From NCBI RefSeq assembly GCF_003591005.1, contig NZ_QYYD01000008.1:62001-126000 (forward strand): a stretch of 64,000 nucleotides of DNA. Direction: 5' to 3'. The translations under genes were made by a program, and so were the position numbers. Of the stretch, positions 32-9,263 are shown in pieces; within the stretch, counting starts at the first letter, position 1, and every line of letters begins with the position of its first letter. Below the pieces are notes generated by a model that saw nothing but the letters and a program-made list of their open reading frames with translations, did no database searches and was not told the DNA's origin. The DNA comes from Rhodopseudomonas palustris (lineage in GTDB: Bacteria; Pseudomonadota; Alphaproteobacteria; Rhizobiales; Xanthobacteraceae).

Positions 32-529
32 ATGACACTGCTTCGTTCATCGTTTTCGTTTCACGCGCTGAAGGCGGCCGGCGTTGCTACGGCAATGCTG
101 CTGTCGGCATCCGCGAGCCACGCCGAGGGCCCGTTTGCCGGGTTCGAAGGCTCGTGGTCCGGCACCGGCACCGTCGCTCTATCCGATGGTACGAAGGAGC
201 GAATTCGCTGCCGCGCCACCTACAAGGTCGGCGGCGGCGGCAACCAGCTCGCGCAGACACTGCGCTGCGCCAGCGACAGCTACAAGTTCGACCTGACCGC
301 GGACGTCGCCAGCAATGGCGACCGGATCTCCGGCAATTGGAGCGAAGCCAGCCGCAACATCAATGGCAACCTGCAGGGCAAGGCCGGCGGCGGCAACATC
401 GAAGTGTTCGTCGAAGCGGCTGGCTTTGCCGCCAGCATTTCGTTGACCACCCGCGGCAACAAGCAGTCGGTCGCGATCAGCTCGAAGGGCGACATTCGCG
501 GCGTCAACATCAGCATGACCAGGGGCTGA
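32..529 (+). CDS. exported protein of unknown function
   Basis: A 165-residue protein that I do not recognise. Residues 1-31 form a Sec-type signal peptide: a basic start, a hydrophobic AGVATAMLLSASA core and an SHA|EG cleavage site. The mature part is rich in Gly, Ser and Asn and begins with a GSWSGTGTVAL segment. It has alternating polar and hydrophobic strands that suggest a small beta-barrel or sandwich in the periplasm. The ATG is preceded by an AGGGG ribosome site. It is a single-gene unit as far as the window shows, followed at once by a strong terminator. The exported location is well supported; the function is unknown. Confidence 0.8.
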   Translation: MTLLRSSFSFHALKAAGVATAMLLSASASHAEGPFAGFEGSWSGTGTVALSDGTKERIRCRATYKVGGGGNQLAQTLRCASDSYKFDLTADVASNGDRISGNWSEASRNINGNLQGKAGGGNIEVFVEAAGFAASISLTTRGNKQSVAISSKGDIRGVNISMTRG

Positions 530-554
530 TCCGCACAACAGCCTGCAACCTGAA

Positions 555-590
555 CCCCCTCGGAAGCGATTCCGAGGGGGTTTTTGTTTG
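555..590 (+). terminator. rho-independent terminator of the exported-protein gene
   Basis: A perfect 11-bp stem (555-565 pairing with 570-580) with a GCGA tetraloop is followed by TTTTTGTTTG. It isolates the upstream gene from the seven-gene operon that starts at 736. Confidence 0.93.
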
Positions 591-735: not shown

Positions 736-2268
736 ATGGTGGTATTCAAGGGTCCGATCATTCCGACGCCGAAGACGCTGGACGCATTGTTCGAGCCGAC
801 GATGTTCCGGGACTATGTCGAATTGGTCAGTGGCAGGCTGGAGCATTATCTGGCCGACCGTTCGGTTCGCGGACTGGCGCTGAGCAATCCACCGGCGCTG
901 TTGGAGACGGCACAGGCCCTCACCGAACGTCCTAGCGCCGCCAGCCCCGAGGCCGACGCCGGCCGGCTCGCCGCGATCCTCGATCTCTACATCCGCACCG
1001 GCATCCAGCTGTATTCGCCCGGCTATATGGGGAGGCAATTTTCCGGCCCGCTGCCGCTTGCGGCCGTGGTCGACCTGGCCGGCTCGATCCTCAACCAGCC
1101 CGCCTCGTTCTACGAGGCCGCGCAACTTCCGAACATCGCAGAGCGGATCATGGCGGACGAGTTGAACCGCTTCGTCGGCTTCGCGCCGCATCGGTTCACG
1201 ATGGTCACCACCTCCGGCGGCTCGCTCGCCAATCTGACGGCGCTGCTGGCGGCGCGCAACGACCGGTTGCCGCATGCCTGGAGCGAAGGCCTCGCCGGCA
1301 CCAGACAGCCTCGCCCTGCTATCGCCGTCGGTGCCGACGCGCATTACAGCATCTGCCGCGCCGCCGGAATCCTGGGGATCGGCGAAGGCCAGATCATCCG
1401 GCTGCCAATCGACCGCGAGCGCCGCATCGACATCGCCGCGGCGAAGCGGACGCTGGAGGCGGCGCGGCGGCACGGGCTGCAGCCGTTCTGTCTGGTCGGC
1501 TCGGCCGGCAGCACCTCGGTGGGCGCGTTCGACTCGATCGATCAGCTCGCCGACATCGCCGCCGAACAGGATCTGTGGCTGCATATCGATGGCGCCCATG
1601 GCGCCAGCCTGTTGCTCTGCGACCAACTCCGCCACCGGCTGCACGGCATCGCCCGGGCCGATTCGCTCACCTGGGATGCTCACAAGCTGCTGTTCGTTCC
1701 GGCAGCGTGCACGCTGCTGTTCTACAAGGACAAGGACAAGGCCCGCGGCGCCTTCCGGCAGGACGCCAGCTACGTGTTCGACAAACACGCCAACGGCCAC
1801 GCCGACTACGAGGGCGCCGGCAAGAATCTGGAATGCACCAAGCGCGCGATGATCATGCCGCTGTGGGTGTCGTGGGCGATGTATGGGCCGGCTCCGTTCG
1901 CCGACAAGATCGCGCTGCTCTGCCGGGCGACCACGGATGCGGAGAAGATCATCGCCGGCGAGCCTGACTTCGAGACGCTGCACGTTCCGCAAGCCAACAT
2001 CCTGTGCTTCCGCTATCGCCCGGCCGGACTGCCGGAGTCGCGGCTCGGTAATTTCCAGGTCGAAATCCGCGACCGCGTCCGCGCAGAGGGCGACTTCTTC
2101 ATTTCGCAGGTGGAGCTCGACGGCACCGCCGCGCTGCGGCTGGTGATGATGAACCACCGGATCGAGCCGACGCATGTGCGGCAGCTGCTACGCCAGATCC
2201 GCAAAATCGGACTGGAGATTCTGGCGGGCGCAGAGCGCGCGCAGCCCGAGGTCAGCCAATGGGTGTGA
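736..2268 (+). CDS. PLP-dependent group II amino-acid decarboxylase
   Basis: A 510-residue cytoplasmic enzyme of the aromatic-L-amino-acid/glutamate/diaminobutyrate decarboxylase family. Family landmarks are in order: TTSGGSLANL (158-167) for phosphate binding, the ring-stacking His in GADAHYS (H203), HIDGAHG (D285 contacts the pyridine nitrogen, H288), and the Schiff-base lysine K317 in TWDAHK. The length is normal for the family. The substrate cannot be read from sequence; aromatic amino acids, glutamate and 2,4-diaminobutyrate are all possible. It is the first gene of a seven-gene operon, has an AAGGGA ribosome site, and overlaps the next gene by 10 bp, so the two are probably translationally coupled. 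Pairing with an adenylate-forming enzyme suggests that the amine product is used further, but that is inference. Confidence 0.9.
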   Translation: MVVFKGPIIPTPKTLDALFEPTMFRDYVELVSGRLEHYLADRSVRGLALSNPPALLETAQALTERPSAASPEADAGRLAAILDLYIRTGIQLYSPGYMGRQFSGPLPLAAVVDLAGSILNQPASFYEAAQLPNIAERIMADELNRFVGFAPHRFTMVTTSGGSLANLTALLAARNDRLPHAWSEGLAGTRQPRPAIAVGADAHYSICRAAGILGIGEGQIIRLPIDRERRIDIAAAKRTLEAARRHGLQPFCLVGSAGSTSVGAFDSIDQLADIAAEQDLWLHIDGAHGASLLLCDQLRHRLHGIARADSLTWDAHKLLFVPAACTLLFYKDKDKARGAFRQDASYVFDKHANGHADYEGAGKNLECTKRAMIMPLWVSWAMYGPAPFADKIALLCRATTDAEKIIAGEPDFETLHVPQANILCFRYRPAGLPESRLGNFQVEIRDRVRAEGDFFISQVELDGTAALRLVMMNHRIEPTHVRQLLRQIRKIGLEILAGAERAQPEVSQWV

Positions 2269-3821
2269 AGATGGCCGTCGCAACCGCATCGAGCCGCAAG
2301 TCGCAGCGGAGCGAAGAGACTCCGGTGACGCGGCTGATTCCGCCGGAGGAATTGCAGCCGAACTCGGCCGACGCCGTGGCGCAGCTCCCGGCATTTCTCG
2401 GCAAGCTCCGCAGCTGTGAACGGATGCTGCGGACACCGTTCGCCGAAGCCGCCGCCGCGGTTCAGGATGCTCTGGTGCTGCGGCGGCTGCAGCAGATGGT
2501 CAATACGCTGCGCCTGAACCCGTTGTGGGCGGAGCGGCTGACGCACGCCGGCGTCAAGGCGGCGCCGCGCGACTTCGAGCAGTGGCAGGCGATCCCGCTG
2601 TCCACCAAGGAGTTGATGCAAGACTTCTACATGGGCGAGCGGCCCGGACTGGTGGTGCCGCTACGCCGTGGCGGCTTCGAGATCGTCGCCAGCGGCGGCA
2701 CCAGCAGCGGACTGCCGGCCGAAACAGTGTATTCGCTGCGCGAACTCGCCGACACCTACGAACTCGCCGGCGAGTTCATGGGCCGCTATCAGCTCCGCGA
2801 TCATCTCGCGGGCGAGGCGCCGAAATGGGTGCTGACCACGCTGGCCGATTACCAGATGTGGAGCAGCGGCACGATGGTGGGCGGCGTGCTGCAGAAAATT
2901 CCCGGCGTCAATTACATCGGCGCCGGCCCGGTCACCCGGGACGTGTATCACCACATGATGAGCTATAGGGGTCCGAAGGCGATCCTCGGCATCTCGGCCG
3001 GCATCGGCCTGCTGAGCGAGCTCGGGCTCGGACTTGCGGAGCAGGCCCGCGGCGAGCTTCGCGTCGCGCTGTATGGCAGCGGCTTGCTACCCCAGCGCAA
3101 GCAGGCGGAATTGCGGGCACTTTATCCAAACCTCGCAATCCTGAGTTACTTCGCCGCGACCCAGGCAGAGACCATCGGGCTGCAGCTGTCCACCGCCTCT
3201 CCGCTGCTGGCCACTGTCCCGGGTCTGCATCTCGTCGAAGTCGTCGATGCCGATGGCCGCTGGGTCGCCGAGGGCGAAGTCGGCGAACTCGTCGTGACAC
3301 GGCTGCATGCCCACGAAGCGCCGCTGCCGCGCTACAAACTCGGCGACCGCGTGATCAGGCGGCCGAACCTGACCGGGCCCGGCTTGCGGACACACCAGTT
3401 CGAATTCGCCGGGCGCAGCGGCGACGTGATCCATCTGTGCGACACCCAATACGCCGCGCCGCAGGTCTATGCGGCGCTGAGTCGGAAGACCAAGCCACTC
3501 GGCTTCGATCTCGACGCGGCCTGTCACGACCTGCAGTTCTGCAACGACCGCCGCGGCAAGACCCTCACGCTGCTCGGCGCGGTCGACAATCCGGCCGCGC
3601 TGAATGCCGCGCTGGCCCATGCGCTCGGCCACGACGGCGTCCGCCGCATCTTCGTCGACGCGCTGATTCAGGCGCTGTCACTGTTCAACCAAGGCGAAGC
3701 CAACGTCCCGGCGATCGACCGGACCGGCTACCAATTCGAGCTGCGCTTCGTGGCGCGGTCTTCCGACGAGATCCACCGCACCAGCGTCGGCAAAGTGCCG
3801 TTGTTGCGAGACCAGACCTGA
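2259..3821 (+). CDS. PaaK-like AMP-forming ligase (adenylate-forming enzyme)
   Basis: A 520-residue protein resembling phenylacetate-CoA ligase and its relatives. The N-terminal half has the PaaK-type segment leading to IPLSTKELM (112-120). It then has the nucleotide-binding loop ASGGTSSGLP (144-153), and a late GELVVTRL...YKLGDRV segment as in adenylating enzymes. The first 40 residues are an unusual polar extension. The start is supported by GAGG seven bases upstream inside the preceding gene. Known family members activate aryl or acyl acids with ATP and pass them to CoA or an amine; which one applies here is unknown. It overlaps the decarboxylase, is followed 86 bp later by the AidA/PixA-like genes, and is probably cotranscribed with them. 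Confidence 0.8.
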   Translation: MGVKMAVATASSRKSQRSEETPVTRLIPPEELQPNSADAVAQLPAFLGKLRSCERMLRTPFAEAAAAVQDALVLRRLQQMVNTLRLNPLWAERLTHAGVKAAPRDFEQWQAIPLSTKELMQDFYMGERPGLVVPLRRGGFEIVASGGTSSGLPAETVYSLRELADTYELAGEFMGRYQLRDHLAGEAPKWVLTTLADYQMWSSGTMVGGVLQKIPGVNYIGAGPVTRDVYHHMMSYRGPKAILGISAGIGLLSELGLGLAEQARGELRVALYGSGLLPQRKQAELRALYPNLAILSYFAATQAETIGLQLSTASPLLATVPGLHLVEVVDADGRWVAEGEVGELVVTRLHAHEAPLPRYKLGDRVIRRPNLTGPGLRTHQFEFAGRSGDVIHLCDTQYAAPQVYAALSRKTKPLGFDLDAACHDLQFCNDRRGKTLTLLGAVDNPAALNAALAHALGHDGVRRIFVDALIQALSLFNQGEANVPAIDRTGYQFELRFVARSSDEIHRTSVGKVPLLRDQT

Positions 3822-3907
3822 CGAAATCGCCCGGCGAACGCGCCACGGCGACGGCGATGACCAATGACACCGGTCGGTCAGCCGATCCGGCAACGCGGAG
3901 AATGATG

Positions 3908-4345
3908 ATGCATGCGGTCAATATCGTCACCATCGTCGACACCATCGCCGCGTTGTCGAGCGGCTCGTTGCGCAATCACGTCTACATGGCCGATGACGGC
4001 TGGTGCAGCGAACGCAAGGGCACGGCAGAGCTGGCCACCGCTTGTTATCCGGGCCAGCCGATCAGCTGGACGGTGCACGCGATCGACGTGCAGAGTCCCG
4101 CACTAATCTCCGAAATCCGCATCCTCGATCTGGCCCCCCACGGTCCGGCGGCGAGATTCACGCCGGGTCCGGAGGCGGGCGGTGCGCCGCAGTGGACTTA
4201 TTGGTCCGGGCTGGTGCCCTGCTGCCTGCCGCCGGGACGCTACGGCTACCGGCTGCAATTTCAGCTTGGACGCGGCGAGCGCAGCGTCCTGTCGATCGAC
4301 ACCCCGGCGCTCAACGTCCTGTCGTGGACCGGAGCACAGTCATGA
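3908..4345 (+). CDS. AidA/PixA-like (inclusion body family) protein 1
   Basis: A 145-residue protein with the layout I associate with the AidA/PixA family. A hydrophobic strand and Asp (VNIVTIVDTIAAL) come first, then HVYMADD, a GTAEL motif, GQPISWTV, and a terminal PPGRYGYRLQFQ strand. PixA is an abundant inclusion-body protein of Xenorhabdus; AidA proteins of Burkholderia and Ralstonia are quorum-regulated and linked to host interaction. I chose the third of three consecutive ATGs (3902, 3905, 3908) because GGAG at 3897-3900 then sits seven bases upstream; an ATG at 3857 is a longer alternative. It ends in an ATGA overlap with the next paralog. The assignment is from remembered motifs and was not searched. 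Confidence 0.65.
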   Translation: MHAVNIVTIVDTIAALSSGSLRNHVYMADDGWCSERKGTAELATACYPGQPISWTVHAIDVQSPALISEIRILDLAPHGPAARFTPGPEAGGAPQWTYWSGLVPCCLPPGRYGYRLQFQLGRGERSVLSIDTPALNVLSWTGAQS

Positions 4346-5148
4346 GCCAGCAGCTCGGAATCGTCCTGATGATCGACAGCGCCGCGGCGATCGAGGCCGG
4401 GTCGCTCGAGGGAAATATCTATCTCGTCGACAACGGCAAATCAGCCGGGTCGACCGGCGAAGGCACGCCGCATCTGGTGACAAAGATCAACGGCGTCAGG
4501 ATCACCGGGCAGCCTGACGTGCAGGTGCTGAACTGGCTGCCCTACGGGGTCTCCAGCCCGCCGCCGACGCTGCCGCAGCCGTTCTTCCTCGACGCGCCGT
4601 CGCGTGAAGCACTGGCGCGGCACGTCCAGTCGGCCGAGCCGCGTCTCGCGGCCCGGCGCCTCTCCGCCCAGCGCCTCGCTGCCGGAGAGGAGCCGGCTCC
4701 AGTGCCGGAGCCCGAGCCGGAGCCGGTGCTGCCGCGGCTGACACGACGGATCGTCGATGTTCTCGGCCGCGATCTGCGCGAGGCGGCGAGCCCGGCGCTT
4801 CGCGCCAACATCGCCGCCCGCGCCGCTCCCGAGGGCACGCGCGTGCATTACCCCAATCCGCTGATCAGCAACATCTACGGCGAAGCGGTCGATCTGCGGG
4901 TGATCTACCCGGCGCAATACGGCTCGCCCGATCTGTTCTCCGACGGCCTGTACTGGAGCGCGAGTGTCGATACCAGCCGGGTCGGCTACTACTCCTACCT
5001 GATCGACGTCGTGCTGTTCTACTCGGAGCTGAGCGGCGGACAGTGGGTCGAGCGGTCGATCACCCTGCCCTACGCGGCTTATCTCGACGTCACCGATCAT
5101 ACGGCCATCAACGGCTTCTCGGCCACGCCGGCGATCCTGCCGGCCTGA
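4342..5148 (+). CDS. AidA/PixA-like protein 2, enlarged
   Basis: A 268-residue paralog of its neighbours. The first ~60 residues match the family start (LGIVLMIDSAAAI, NIYLVDN, EGTPHLVT). The region typical of paralogs 1 and 4 is then replaced by an Arg/Ala-rich segment and a Pro-Glu run (about 115-130). A new C-terminal domain follows, rich in Tyr and Ser (SPDLFSDGLYWSASVDTSRV, then YYSYLIDVVLFYSEL). I do not recognise that domain; it could be a second beta-sandwich. The start codon overlaps the previous stop (ATGA), so translation is coupled. Function is unknown. The enlarged form suggests division of labour among the four paralogs. Confidence 0.6.
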   Translation: MSQQLGIVLMIDSAAAIEAGSLEGNIYLVDNGKSAGSTGEGTPHLVTKINGVRITGQPDVQVLNWLPYGVSSPPPTLPQPFFLDAPSREALARHVQSAEPRLAARRLSAQRLAAGEEPAPVPEPEPEPVLPRLTRRIVDVLGRDLREAASPALRANIAARAAPEGTRVHYPNPLISNIYGEAVDLRVIYPAQYGSPDLFSDGLYWSASVDTSRVGYYSYLIDVVLFYSELSGGQWVERSITLPYAAYLDVTDHTAINGFSATPAILPA

Positions 5149-5198
5149 GCGACGCCGCCAACCAGGCGCCGATGTGGCGCACCGTGCTGGAGAGTGAC

Positions 5199-5684
5199 AT
5201 GAACACGATCGCGATCGTCTCGGTGGTGGATGTAGTCGGCGCGCTGGCCGCAAACGATCTGACCGGGAGCTTCTATCTGTTCGACGACAACAAGAGCAAA
5301 GGCTCGCGCGACGAAGGCACCGAGGCGCTCCAGACCAGGGTCTCCAAGGGCGACCAGGTCGTGTGGACGTCGATCCCGCTGGAGTGCGAGGCGTATATCA
5401 GCATCAGCGGCGTCGAGATCGACAAGAAGTACAAGGATTATTGCGACGTCAGAAAAGACGTCTATCCCGGCACCAACGTGGTGTACTGGCTCGGCGAGAT
5501 CAGGAAAGAGCTGGACGGGCCGATCCCCTACACTCTCAAATTCAAGCTCGGCAGCCACAAGGGCGAATTCGCGATCAGCACGTCGCCGGCGCTGATCGGC
5601 GATCCGCCCGCGCCGGCCCAGGCCGCCCCCGCCGCAGCCGCAACCGCTCCGGCCCCGTCGCCGTCGCCCGCAAAGCCGCGGTGA
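5199..5684 (+). CDS. AidA/PixA-like protein 3 with Ala/Pro-rich tail
   Basis: A 161-residue paralog: TIAIVSVVDVVGALAAN, then GSFYLFDDNKSKGSRDEGTE, a GDQVVWTSIPL strand and a PYTLKFKLGS strand. The last ~28 residues are a low-complexity Ala/Pro tail that the other paralogs lack; it may be a linker or tether. The ATG at 5199 has GGAGAG upstream; an ATG at 5172 would add nine residues. It is the third of four AidA/PixA-like genes, 50 bp after the second. The protein is rich in Lys and Asp, unlike paralog 1, so the copies have diverged strongly. Confidence 0.62.
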   Translation: MNTIAIVSVVDVVGALAANDLTGSFYLFDDNKSKGSRDEGTEALQTRVSKGDQVVWTSIPLECEAYISISGVEIDKKYKDYCDVRKDVYPGTNVVYWLGEIRKELDGPIPYTLKFKLGSHKGEFAISTSPALIGDPPAPAQAAPAAAATAPAPSPSPAKPR

Positions 5685-5726
5685 GGTTCGGCGCGCGGCG
5701 AACACCCCCAACAATGGAGAGACCGG

Positions 5727-6197
5727 ATGCTGCTTCCGCTGAATTCCGTCCAGCTCAACATCGTCGCCGTGCTCGACATCGGTGGCGCGCTGATTAAGCA
5801 GTCGCTCGAGCAGGAGTTGTTCATCATGGACAATTGCGTGACTTCCGACGGCTCGCGCAGCGACGGCCAGGGCACGGTGGCGCTGAGCACCACCTGTACG
5901 CAGGGTCAGGTGATCAACTGGATCATTTATCCGATCGGCAATCTCACCGGCGCGCGGATCAGCAAGATCCGCTTTCTCGATCGCGAGGTCTGCACGCATC
6001 TGCAGATCTACGGCGCCCCGGCGATCGCGGTGTCGCCGTCCTACACTCCCGGCGTGACCCCGGTCTACGATTACTGGGCCGGCATGGTGCTGCCCGACCT
6101 GCCGCCCGGCCGCTACAACTATCAGCTCGAAGTGCAGGTCGGCGGCTGCCTGCTGCAAACCGAGTCGCCGTCGCTCAACGTGTTGCCGCTGCAGTGA
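5727..6197 (+). CDS. AidA/PixA-like protein 4
   Basis: A 156-residue paralog most like protein 1. Shared landmarks are VQLNIVAVLDIGGAL, ELFIMDN, GQGTVALSTTC, GQVINWIIYP, the ISKIRFLD strand, the YDYWAGMVLPDLPPGRYNYQ block and the SPSLNVLPL end. Proteins 1 and 4 alone share the Trp/Tyr plus PPGRY block, so they form one sub-pair. The start has a GGAGAG ribosome site. It lies 42 bp after paralog 3 and 7 bp before the cysteine hydrolase, clearly in one transcript. Its function, as for the family, is not established biochemically. Confidence 0.65.
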   Translation: MLLPLNSVQLNIVAVLDIGGALIKQSLEQELFIMDNCVTSDGSRSDGQGTVALSTTCTQGQVINWIIYPIGNLTGARISKIRFLDREVCTHLQIYGAPAIAVSPSYTPGVTPVYDYWAGMVLPDLPPGRYNYQLEVQVGGCLLQTESPSLNVLPLQ

Positions 6198-6204
6198 GGT
6201 CGCG

Positions 6205-6771
6205 ATGACCCGGGCGCTGCTGATCGTCGATGTGCAGAACGACTACTTCCCCGGCGGCGCGCTCGAATTGACGGGGATGATCGAGGCCGCCGACAATTGC
6301 CGCCGGCTGCTGCAGCATTTCAGGTGGGCGCGCGCGCCCGTCGTTCACGTTCGGCATCAGGCGCCGGCCGAACTCGGGGCGCTGGTGGTGCACACGAGCG
6401 GCGCCCAAATCCACGCCAGCCTGCGACCGACCGCCGGCGAAGCGGTGATCGCCAAGACCAGCCCCAACGCGTTTCGCGGCACCTGGCTGCATCCGCTGCT
6501 GAGCCGGGCGGGCATCGCCGAACTGGTGATCTGCGGGGCGATGACGCAAACCTGCATCGACTCCACCGCCCGGGCGGCGTTCGATCTCGGCTACGCCGTT
6601 ACGGTGGCGGCCGACGCCTGCGCCGCCCGGGGTCTGCGGTGGAACGGCGTCCAATTTCCCGCCGCGCAGGTTCAGGCGGTGATCCTGGCGGCGCTGCAGA
6701 CGCCGTTCGCGCAACTGCCGAGCACCGCCGAACTGATCGCAGAGTCGTCGCGACGCGCCGCGAATGCCTGA
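6205..6771 (+). CDS. isochorismatase-family cysteine hydrolase
   Basis: A 188-residue hydrolase of the isochorismatase/nicotinamidase-like fold. The catalytic triad is visible: D9 in LLIVDVQND, K84 in VIAKTSPNAF and C117 in ICGAMTQTCIDST. Family members cleave amide, ester or vinyl-ether bonds of small molecules. The length is typical. It is the last gene of the operon, 7 bp after paralog 4, and is followed by a terminator. With an amine-making decarboxylase and an acid-activating ligase upstream, an amidase-like role on the same small molecule is plausible but inferred. Confidence 0.87.
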   Translation: MTRALLIVDVQNDYFPGGALELTGMIEAADNCRRLLQHFRWARAPVVHVRHQAPAELGALVVHTSGAQIHASLRPTAGEAVIAKTSPNAFRGTWLHPLLSRAGIAELVICGAMTQTCIDSTARAAFDLGYAVTVAADACAARGLRWNGVQFPAAQVQAVILAALQTPFAQLPSTAELIAESSRRAANA

Positions 6772-6809
6772 GGACAGGCAGCTCCAGCTCATACCAAATC
6801 TTGAAACGA

Positions 6810-6840
6810 AACCCTCGGACCAGCTGGCCCGAGGGTTGTT
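6810..6840. terminator. bidirectional terminator between convergent transcripts
   Basis: A 9-bp stem (6810-6818 with 6829-6837), extended inside by CC/GG after one mismatch, is followed on + by GTTGTTTG and on - by a T-rich run. It separates the decarboxylase operon from the convergent exporter gene. Confidence 0.85.
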
Positions 6841-6869
6841 TGCTGCGCTTGCCGATGGGGAAAGGCGGC

Positions 6870-9263
6870 CTACACCACCGGCCCCGCCTTGCGGCTGTTG
6901 CCGCGCAGCCGCTCCGCGGTGCTGATCAGCCACATCGCGGTGGGGCGCAGGATGAACAGATCGGCGATCAGCGCCGCCACCATCGCGAAGGCGCTGAGCC
7001 AGCCGAACAGCCGCAGCGACGGCAGGTCCGAGAACACCGTGACGCCGAGGCCGCAGGCCAGCACCACCGTGGTGAGGATCAGCGCCGGGCCGACCAGCAC
7101 GGTGGCGCGCTCGACCGCGAGCGCCGCGCTGGTGCCGGGCGGGCTCTCCAGCCGCAGACGATTGAGGAAGTGAATCGTCGCGCTGAGGCCGAGGCCGAAC
7201 GACACCGTCAGCGCCACGACGCTGGCAAATTGCAGACCCTCCCCCATCAGCCACAGCAGCGTGCCCGACAGCACCACCGGGAAGATGCCCGGCAGAATGC
7301 AGGCGAACATCACCACCACCGAGCGGAAGGCGAGGCCGATGAACACCGCCACCAGCAGGAATTCGATGGTGAGACCATGATTGAGCTTGGAGATCATGTC
7401 GGCGCTGTTGCGCGCCGCGATCGCCGACAGGCCGGTGACCGCAACCTCGTAGCCCGGATATTTCTGCCGCACGGTGTCGAGCGCGTGGTCGAGCTTCTGT
7501 ACCACCGGAAGGATCTGCGCGGAGTCGAGATCCGGCACGCGGCCGGACACCACCACGGCGGTCTGGTCGGCCGAGATAAAGCGCCGCGTCAGATGCTCGG
7601 GGATGACGTCGACATATTCCTTGAGGGTCGCGACGTCGTCGGTGTGCGCCTTCTCGGCGAGCCAGCGGCGCAGCGTTTCCAGCGACCAGACGTTGCCGAC
7701 GCCGGCCTGCTTCTCGACCATGCTGTGGACGTCGGCGATGACCTGCAGGGTCTCCGGCGAATACAGCGTCTGGCCCTTCGGGAATTCGATCAGCACGTCG
7801 ATCGGATTGGCGCCGGTGAGCTTGGCGTCGAGCCGGCCGCTCGCCTGCACCGCCTGCTCCTTGTCGGGCACCTGATCGGCCAGCCGGTAGCGCGGTTCGA
7901 GATTGGCGTAGATCACGCCGAGACCGCCGACCAGCAGCAGCGCCAGCAGGCTGAACAGGCCGGGATGACCGACCATCCGCTGCGCGATGAAGGCGCAGAA
8001 CCGGCGCAGCGCGTTGACGCCGAAATCGGCGCCCTGAAACTTCGCCGCGAACGCCTGCTCGTTGCGCACCAGCAGCACGCCGAACACCGGCACCAGCGAC
8101 AGCACCGCGATCAGGGCGATCACGGTGGCGACGAGGCCCGCCTCGCCGAACGCGCGGATCAGGTCCGAGTCGGAGAATTGTAGGGCGATGAAGGAAATGC
8201 CGGCGGTGGCGTGGGTCAGCACGCAGGCCGGGCCGACCACCAGCACGGCGTTCCTGAACGCGGTGTATTTGTCCTCGCCGGCGATCAGCCGGTCTCTGGC
8301 CGCGAAGGTGAGCTGCATCGAATCGGCGAAGCTGATCACCATGATCAGCGGCGTCATCACGTTGAGGAACATGTTGAGGCTGAAGCCGGCCCAGCCCAGC
8401 ACGCCGAGCGACAGCAGGATCGCCAGCAGCGGCGGAAACGCCGCCACCACCATGAACGAGATCTTGCGGAAGAACAGGATGGCGATAATGCAGCCGGCCA
8501 GGATGCCGGCGATGTTATAGATCAGGCCGTCGCGCTCGACGGCGTTGCGGATTTCGAGCTGCATCACCGGCACGCCCGACAGCTCTCGAGTGAGGCCGGT
8601 GCCTTCGAGATCTTCGGTCATCACCTTGCGGATCTCGCCGATCGTTCCGGACAGCTTGTTGTTGCTGACGATCTCCGGCGACAGCGACAGCACGATCAGC
8701 GCCAGCGTCCCGTCTTCCGACAGCAGCTTGCCGCGGATGATTTCGTTGCTCTTCACGGTGGCGATGAACTTGTCGTAGGCCTCGCCTTCCGGCAGTTCGT
8801 TGGGAAACAGCGCCGCCGGCAGCTTGCCGGGCTCCGGCGCCTGGCGCGCCGAGAACAGCGAGATCAGCCCGCGGACGCCGTCGACCAGCTGCAGGTCGGT
8901 GACGAGGTCACGCACCTTTTCGAGGTTTTCGCGCTCCAGCAGCGTCTTGCCTTCGACCACCACCAGCACGTCGTATTCGGTCGACGGGAAGCGCTTGGTG
9001 ACCTCCTCGTACTGCTTGAACTCCTTGGTATCGGAGCGAAACAGCTGGCTCAGCGAATCGTCGATCTGGATGCGCTGAATGCCGAAGATCGCGCCGACGA
9101 TCAGCACCGCCAGGATGATGCAGGACAGGATCGGCGCCCGAACCGCGATCAGGCCCATCCGCTCCAGCCCGAAGGCGATGCTGAGCCTTCGGCGATGCGC
9201 CTCGTCGACTTCGGGATCCGGGACGTTCTTGTTCAGCATGCGCTGTTCCGTTCTGGCGGTCAT
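6870..9263 (-). CDS. RND-superfamily (MMPL-type) exporter
   Basis: A 797-residue inner-membrane protein with the duplicated RND layout. A first membrane helix (about 42-62) precedes a large periplasmic loop. A block of helices (about 240-400) carries SFADSMQLTF, then a helix near 430, a second periplasmic domain, and a final helix block from about 640 containing SFGLGLSATIHFLNRL. Such single-gene proteins are proton-driven exporters of lipids or hydrophobic compounds. The start is ambiguous: ATG at 9263, or an ATG seven codons later with GGAA upstream. It lies downstream of eutC and hpnP on the same strand, so a role with envelope lipids is tempting but unproven. It does not look like the longer HpnN family. 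Confidence 0.85.
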   Translation of the reverse strand: MTARTEQRMLNKNVPDPEVDEAHRRRLSIAFGLERMGLIAVRAPILSCIILAVLIVGAIFGIQRIQIDDSLSQLFRSDTKEFKQYEEVTKRFPSTEYDVLVVVEGKTLLERENLEKVRDLVTDLQLVDGVRGLISLFSARQAPEPGKLPAALFPNELPEGEAYDKFIATVKSNEIIRGKLLSEDGTLALIVLSLSPEIVSNNKLSGTIGEIRKVMTEDLEGTGLTRELSGVPVMQLEIRNAVERDGLIYNIAGILAGCIIAILFFRKISFMVVAAFPPLLAILLSLGVLGWAGFSLNMFLNVMTPLIMVISFADSMQLTFAARDRLIAGEDKYTAFRNAVLVVGPACVLTHATAGISFIALQFSDSDLIRAFGEAGLVATVIALIAVLSLVPVFGVLLVRNEQAFAAKFQGADFGVNALRRFCAFIAQRMVGHPGLFSLLALLLVGGLGVIYANLEPRYRLADQVPDKEQAVQASGRLDAKLTGANPIDVLIEFPKGQTLYSPETLQVIADVHSMVEKQAGVGNVWSLETLRRWLAEKAHTDDVATLKEYVDVIPEHLTRRFISADQTAVVVSGRVPDLDSAQILPVVQKLDHALDTVRQKYPGYEVAVTGLSAIAARNSADMISKLNHGLTIEFLLVAVFIGLAFRSVVVMFACILPGIFPVVLSGTLLWLMGEGLQFASVVALTVSFGLGLSATIHFLNRLRLESPPGTSAALAVERATVLVGPALILTTVVLACGLGVTVFSDLPSLRLFGWLSAFAMVAALIADLFILRPTAMWLISTAERLRGNSRKAGPVV

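Follow-up and report, generated by a model that had tools for sequence, protein, structure and literature searches.

The closest described relatives of the four small proteins reported here belong to the AidA/PixA/MakC/MakD superfamily, which has solved structures and host-interaction phenotypes, without a settled molecular function in the open-licence literature examined. One branch (PF12306) comprises Burkholderia AidA/Bnr1, Xenorhabdus PixA, which is methionine-rich, and the structure 4lzk. The AidA genes of Burkholderia and Photorhabdus are described as under LuxR-type control (PMC1766932, PMC10143992). MakC and MakD, small proteins encoded in tandem in the Vibrio cholerae mak operon, are cytosolic; they are expressed together with MakABE, and when both are lost the secretion of MakB, MakE and MakA is affected (PMC11484084). 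A stretch of 64,000 nucleotides from Rhodopseudomonas palustris (contig NZ_QYYD01000008.1, positions 62,001 to 126,000; hereafter the window) carries a cassette that ties four members of this superfamily (A1 to A4), in a fixed order, to two assayable enzymes, a decarboxylase (dec) and an adenylate-forming ligase (lig). Hosts of the cassette include cultured soil and water bacteria, and because of this fixed tie to assayable enzymes the question of what the superfamily does would become directly testable.

Seven co-directional open reading frames (ORFs) occupy positions 736-6771 of the plus strand, neighbours overlapping by 10 or 4 bp or otherwise lying 7-80 bp apart. This confirms the arrangement given in a preliminary description of the window, whose assignments of a decarboxylase, a PaaK-like ligase and a cysteine hydrolase are borne out by PF00282, a profile match to PaaK and PF00857 respectively. 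The genes, with the E values of their matches, are as follows.

736-2268, plus strand: dec (P0001), a pyridoxal phosphate (PLP) decarboxylase, GAD/CSAD-like; PF00282 9e-52, profile against GAD67 (3vp6) 1.5e-75
2259-3821, plus strand: lig (P0002), a divergent PaaK-like adenylate-forming ligase, overlapping dec by 10 bp; profile against PaaK (4r1l) 1.6e-14
3902-4345, plus strand: A1 (P0003), a small protein of MakC/MakD-AidA/PixA type, in its own clade; NF049870 3.5e-12, profile against MakD (6tct) 2.3e-12
4342-5148, plus strand: A2 (P0004), the longest paralog; NF049870 5.2e-9, hhalign to A3 4.4e-15 and to A4 1.6e-20 (N-terminal part)
5199-5684, plus strand: A3 (P0005), the paralog nearest MakC/MakD, with a Pro/Ala-rich tail; NF049870 1.4e-16, profile against 8rqy 1.3e-19 and MakD (6tct) 3.8e-16
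5727-6197, plus strand: A4 (P0006), the paralog with a YWAG signature; NF049870 9.7e-10, profile against MakD 3e-9
6205-6771, plus strand: isochorismatase-fold cysteine hydrolase (P0007), an optional companion; PF00857 2.4e-38, 3lqy 1.3e-41

The conservation of this arrangement was studied through loci encoding lig. A lig pattern was present in 101 stretches of species genomes. Relatives are encoded in 89 of them, and the top 80 were retained, giving 79 loci, to which four from a plasmid collection were added. Several of the resulting 83 are metagenome bins, in which contigs can be misplaced, and many are closely related to each other. By organism title, 46 are Actinomycetota, 12 Cyanobacteriota, nine Pseudomonadota, nine Bacteroidota, one Acidobacteriota and one Chloroflexota; the five whose titles name no phylum are the four plasmid-collection loci and an Aminicenantes bin. 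All six genes from dec to A4 share a strand in 82 of the 83 loci, the other (L045) stopping inside lig. These 82 each contain exactly four A-type ORFs, which by stop codon follow the order A1-A2-A3-A4 throughout; seven apparent swaps arose from ORF starts extended too far and were rejected. An incomplete dec occurs in two of these loci: L051 starts inside it, and L031 is matched only over the C-terminal half (residues 240-499) though its contig runs on upstream, reflecting either a truncated gene or an assembly fault. The comparison of neighbourhoods across genomes suggested in the preliminary description was run with a positive outcome: the core order is kept outside close relatives, in seven phylum-level groups including the Aminicenantes bin.

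A match to the hydrolase, by contrast with the six genes conserved in 82 loci, is found in 27 of 83 (19 at at least 40% identity), where it is encoded before, after or antisense to the core. The seven-gene unit first described hence reduces to a conserved core of six, dec-lig-A1-A2-A3-A4, with the hydrolase as an optional companion. The grouping of the core genes, recurring on the same strand in all but one locus and with the paralogs in constant order, is beyond chance. Their pairwise distances over 82 loci correlate at 0.85-0.96, and the dec-A4 value was reached by none of 999 permutations.

As the locus scan was seeded with lig, its counts show what accompanies lig. A converse search seeded with MakCD matched six of 291 genomes of one cyanobacterial order, and an A cluster adjoins lig in all six; one of these is the genome of locus L025, and the others may overlap with known loci. 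Similarly, 22 of the cassette genomes behind the 83 loci were examined, and in every one of them its MakCD-type matches fall in one cluster. One of the six cyanobacterial cassette genomes also has a separate tandem MakC/MakD-type pair (L187:5113-6093, G1295:C157), and the 11 kb read there contains neither dec nor lig. Another arrangement was seen in a member of the Pseudomonadota (L188, G912:C148), where two MakC/MakD genes that exceed the NCBIfam cut-off are followed by three further genes, by their look presumably pore-forming-toxin subunits.

No description of the cassette was found among the papers listed from the open-licence full-text literature, part of the search being aimed at it only indirectly, which agrees with the earlier statement that no described system of such content was known to its author. 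The combination of four MakC/MakD-type paralogs with a dec-lig pair, present in every lig locus long enough to hold it, is not known to correspond to any described system, although the cassette may still function as a biosynthetic cluster of a familiar sort. A role in anti-phage defence was rejected, none of the seven proteins matching PADLOC-DB 2023 at E ≤0.01. Resemblance to mak extends to small proteins encoded in tandem, the NF049870 matches and homology to solved members; the cassette differs in having four such proteins rather than two, at 36-61 bits against a MakCD cut-off of 110, and in that the partners seen are a decarboxylase and a ligase rather than a tripartite pore-forming toxin. 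It is highly improbable that these are accessory genes of a toxin or secreted protein, with A1 to A4 as chaperones of an effector. Such a role would accord with the co-expression of MakC/MakD with MakABE and the effect of their joint loss on MakB, MakE and MakA secretion (PMC11484084), and with a 2211-residue protein with RTX and cadherin-like repeats that is encoded upstream of one cassette on the opposite strand (L035:1444-8079). That protein was not seen to recur, however, and no Pfam match to a pore-forming toxin was found among the seven operon proteins or, at E ≤1e-5, among 20 neighbour proteins of other loci, a scan that left out the window's flanking genes P0008 and P0009 and many neighbours elsewhere, and in which several neighbours matched nothing.

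The two enzymes belong together. The gap between dec and lig is at most 100 bp in 72 of the 83 loci, with a median of 9 bp, and the genes overlap, abut or are fused in 33. Four loci, all from Flavobacteriaceae (L079, L081, L082 and L087), have two dec-lig pairs, 44-48% identical, upstream of one A1-A4 set, and in Kordia (L081) the second pair is fused in frame. This is the single in-frame fusion seen; another apparent case, in L072, was rejected as an over-extended reading frame.

Conservation within dec was assessed over 88 rows, namely the 83 loci, the window and the four second copies. The window protein is above the PF00282 (Pyridoxal_deC) gathering score (176 bits against 27). Its K317 is present in every row, D285 and H288 in 87, and H203 and Q101 in 86, the remainder being gaps in L031 and L051; we take K317 to be the PLP lysine, and D285 and H203 to be further catalytic residues. 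In the GAD67 alignment Q101 falls on the Gln of the motif NQLS, presumably a contact to the substrate carboxylate. The best solved relatives by profile search are, in order, GAD67, GAD65 and GADL1, followed by 8zpi (labelled a diaminobutyrate enzyme), 4rit and CSAD, while the top two NCBIfam families are PanP (7e-47) and diaminobutyrate decarboxylase (1e-42), both far under their cut-offs. The protein thus shares with GAD65/67, GADL1, CSAD and PanP its sequence family, PLP lysine, Asp, His and the Gln of NQLS; it differs from the GAD, CSAD and PanP enzymes in scoring 160 bits against a PanP cut-off of 606, in a catalytic-loop Tyr that is not fixed, and in lying always beside lig, in loci that were seeded with lig. 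The genome of the window encodes a second decarboxylase, 33% identical to that of the cassette (C33:301002-302267), which could confound enzyme assays in extracts.

The ligase is more divergent. The window protein is under the PF00501 gathering score (12.7 bits against 29.9), with weak AMP-ligase and PaaK matches, and 11 of 25 family members match PF00501 at E ≤0.01, the best at 3.5e-5. A profile of these 25 matches the PaaK structure 4r1l at the value listed above, and also 2y27. Over the same 88 rows S145, G146, G147, T148, Y297, F298, Q302, E304, D363 and R386 are invariant, and the C-terminal K512 is present in 87, with one gap; the SGGTS loop, the YF..Q.E motif, D363, R386 and K512 are assumed here to be adenylation motif residues. 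The PaaK group and lig are therefore alike in the profile matches and in keeping these motifs, but lig is longer, at 520 residues against 436-443, and the similarity is weak and local.

All four A proteins match NF049870, the NCBIfam family MakCD, with E values of 5e-9 to 1e-16 and, from A1 to A4, scores of 46.5, 36.2, 60.6 and 38.6 bits, and its cut-off is exceeded in none of the 22 cassette genomes. They are joined as one family by profile-profile comparison (E 3e-24, 4e-15, 2e-18 and 2e-20), a mutual relationship the preliminary description had proposed to check. A2 aligns with the other paralogs over its N-terminal 48-60 residues only; this family part is followed by a variable stretch and then by a conserved C-terminal part. 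The profiles of A1, A3 and A4 match both 6tct (MakD) and 8rqy, labelled 'inclusion body protein' in the PDB, at 1e-9 to 1e-19. Judged by these profiles, the nearest solved relatives of A1 to A4 are of MakC/MakD type and AidA/PixA is more distant within the superfamily: direct matches to the latter are negligible, the four window proteins having none to PF12306 (PixA) at E 0.1.

The preliminary description had also offered a model in which an amide or amine is stored in protein inclusions, and a system of this sort, with the four paralogs forming inclusion bodies or a store, would find some basis in their kinship, partly weak, with a superfamily that includes the PixA inclusion proteins. Little else supports it, and it appears very unlikely: A1 to A4 contain 0.6-2.7% methionine and so are not Met-rich as PixA is, only one of 31 A3 proteins scanned matches PF12306, at E 0.039, and the closest relatives, MakC and MakD, are cytosolic (PMC11484084). 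In a quick tree of 28 sets over 137 columns, A1 to A4 form four groups requiring the least possible number of changes (three), with supports of 89, 100, 100 and 90, and each has its own invariant signature in the family alignments. These separate signatures suggest four non-equivalent subunits rather than redundant copies.

The reading preferred here, tentatively and with slightly less than even confidence, is that dec and lig would make an activated amine or omega-amino-acid conjugate, and that A1 to A4 would form a cytosolic complex receiving or housing the product. The substrate of the decarboxylase would be an amino acid, in all likelihood acidic, and its product an amine or an omega-amino acid such as gamma-aminobutyric acid or beta-alanine. 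The ligase would adenylate a carboxylate, possibly that of the dec product itself, and pass it to an acceptor to form an amide, thioester or protein conjugate. An acidic-amino-acid decarboxylase fits such a sequence of decarboxylation and activation because its product keeps a carboxylate for lig. A1 to A4 would be non-interchangeable members of a heteromeric complex in the cytosol, which would receive or shelter the product or be modified by it, and the lineage-specific companions (cysteine hydrolase, aminotransferase, N-acetyltransferase-like and SnoaL-like proteins) may tailor or recycle that product. In a stronger version, which seems doubtful, the paralogs would be the subunits of an obligate four-part assembly that itself accepts an activated, decarboxylated amino acid made by dec and lig, or encloses its reaction, and the cassette would be a self-contained, undescribed conjugation or assembly machine carried between phyla.

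The constant six-gene set, the four paralog clades, the correlated distances, the conserved catalytic residues, the close pairing of dec and lig with its fusion and double pairs, the GAD-type relatives of dec together with the retained Gln, and the outcome of the MakCD-seeded search speak for the conjugate-forming reading. Several observations weigh against it. Diaminobutyrate enzymes are among the next-best relatives of dec, both in NCBIfam and as 8zpi, which leaves it uncertain that the substrate is acidic. The position nearest to the GAD catalytic-loop Tyr is Tyr in 68 of 88 rows, Met in nine and His in four, including the window, and with this residue variable the chemistry of dec may differ from plain decarboxylation, for instance as oxidative deamination. 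The likeness of lig to PaaK is, as noted, local and weak. The correlation of gene distances is largely shared descent, and shows that the genes travel as a unit rather than that their products touch. The substrate, product and acceptor, and the contacts of A1 to A4 with one another, with the enzymes and with a metabolite, are all inferred. Finally, the reading overlaps with one in which the paralogs are themselves the substrate.

In that alternative, which is rather unlikely, lig would attach the decarboxylated amino acid or another acid to one or more of A1-A4 and the hydrolase would remove it. The linkage of lig to A1-A4 is fixed, and the single MakCD-type cluster in each of the 22 cassette genomes is as expected of it, as is a hydrolase of amide-cleaving type in the window operon and 27 of 83 loci. 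This protein is above the PF00857 gathering score (132 bits against 27) and has D9, K84 and C117, which we take to be the catalytic triad; over 15 rows K84 is invariant and the other two nearly so. However, no invariant Lys, Cys or Ser that might be the modified residue is common to the four A alignments, and the hydrolase is without a match in 56 of 83 loci over the stretch compared.

Returning to a complex that would house a conjugate made by dec and lig, the companions vary by lineage. In L014, L020 and L027 an aminotransferase gene separates lig from A1 (identified by family scan in the first two), an N-acetyltransferase-like protein is encoded in six cyanobacterial loci (the one scanned had no Pfam match, and RimI at 8e-4 only), a SnoaL-like protein in four (one scanned), and a copper amine oxidase upstream of the Nonomuraea cassette. 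Genes for a major facilitator superfamily (MFS) transporter and for a protein of the same similarity cluster lie upstream in L085 and L089, at distances of 74 and 27 bp respectively. Such differing companions, together with the patchy spread across phyla described below, are features of an ordinary small-molecule cluster producing a diffusible amide or amine signal or an antibiotic, with A1 to A4 as binding, immunity or delivery proteins. The adjacent MFS genes favour this slightly, and LuxR-type control of AidA genes would be in keeping with it (PMC1766932, PMC10143992). No exporter or regulator recurs widely, however, the MFS cluster occurring in four of 83 loci and close by in two, and the number of A genes is constant in 82 loci, whereas a change of product should presumably bring a change in immunity or binding proteins. 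This main rival, which includes the diffusible signal bound by the paralogs proposed at first, is accordingly held to be possible but somewhat unlikely, and the initial interpretation as a whole is partly supported.

Samples of genomes from the genus, family, order, class and phylum of the window show that the cassette is rare among its relatives. Only the window's own genome encodes lig among 249 of the order; A4-type proteins occur in one of 296 genomes of the family, and MakCD-type proteins in one of 289 of the class and two of 398 of the phylum. Within the genus, two of 16 genomes match lig at 1e-10. The window's own does so over the full length, whereas a sister has only two weak matches to parts of it (27-31%), and the cassette is present in one genome. 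In a viral collection, 45 stretches had the lig pattern and none encodes a relative. That a unit so rare in every lineage sampled is nevertheless so strictly preserved across distant groups points to a trait that is useful and can be transferred.

The site of the cassette was compared across the genus. The elements that bound it in the window are:

32-529, plus strand: left flanking gene (P0008), with a match in all 16 genomes of the genus
552-583, plus strand: strong terminator-like hairpin 5' of the cassette, from the repeat and terminator scans
6810-6837, strand not assigned: palindrome 3' of the cassette, 94% complementary, a possible terminator; from the repeat scan, unscored by the terminator scan
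6870-9263, minus strand: right flanking gene (P0009), presumably an MMPL/RND-type membrane protein, likewise matched in all 16

The flanking genes are 6.3 kb apart in the window. In ten of the 15 sisters only 83-248 bp separate them, and in two others 0.6 and 1.0 kb. The remaining three (G250, G262 and G249; loci L124-L126), with spacings of 3.0, 4.5 and 5.9 kb, carry other ORFs there, by their look presumably multihaem-cytochrome/porin-like, transporter/LysR-like and trehalose-phosphate-synthase-like. The varied spacing and the other ORFs mark a recurrent insertion place in the genus. With its patchy distribution and its absence from most sisters with close flanks, the cassette appears to move between distantly related bacteria.

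The gaps flanking the cassette in the window are 530-735 and 6772-6869. Of the two bounding terminators in the preliminary description, the upstream hairpin was scored, and the downstream one is possible only, because the terminator scan gave the palindrome no score. The hairpin is the sole repeat found at 530-745 in a scan that sought dyads, and no sigma-70-like promoter was found at 500-735. The GC content of the cassette (0.64-0.69) is not foreign to its surroundings (0.61-0.73).

A tree of lig places the window without firm resolution; by path length it is nearest to sequences from Rhodospirillales and Sphingomonas. The cyanobacterial rows form one group and the Actinomycetota need two changes; the tree alone is no proof of transfers. 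The rhizobial plasmid copies group elsewhere, together with those of Azospirillum, Insolitispirillum, Granulicella and two bins, and the window copy was therefore probably not taken from rhizobial plasmids.

Seven plasmid records encode lig, five from Bradyrhizobium and one each from Sinorhizobium and Nonomuraea, and four of them were examined. The Nonomuraea gerenzanensis record (NZ_LT559118.1, L009), filed as a plasmid, is 11.85 Mb long and evidently a chromosome. In the three rhizobial records among these four (L010, L011 and L012) lig and all four A genes are annotated as hypothetical proteins only. According to the records, root nodules are the origin of two of these three. Two of the rhizobial plasmid cassettes have HipA or VapC toxin-antitoxin genes nearby, and the Sinorhizobium alkalisoli plasmid has type III secretion genes within about 15-40 kb of its cassette.

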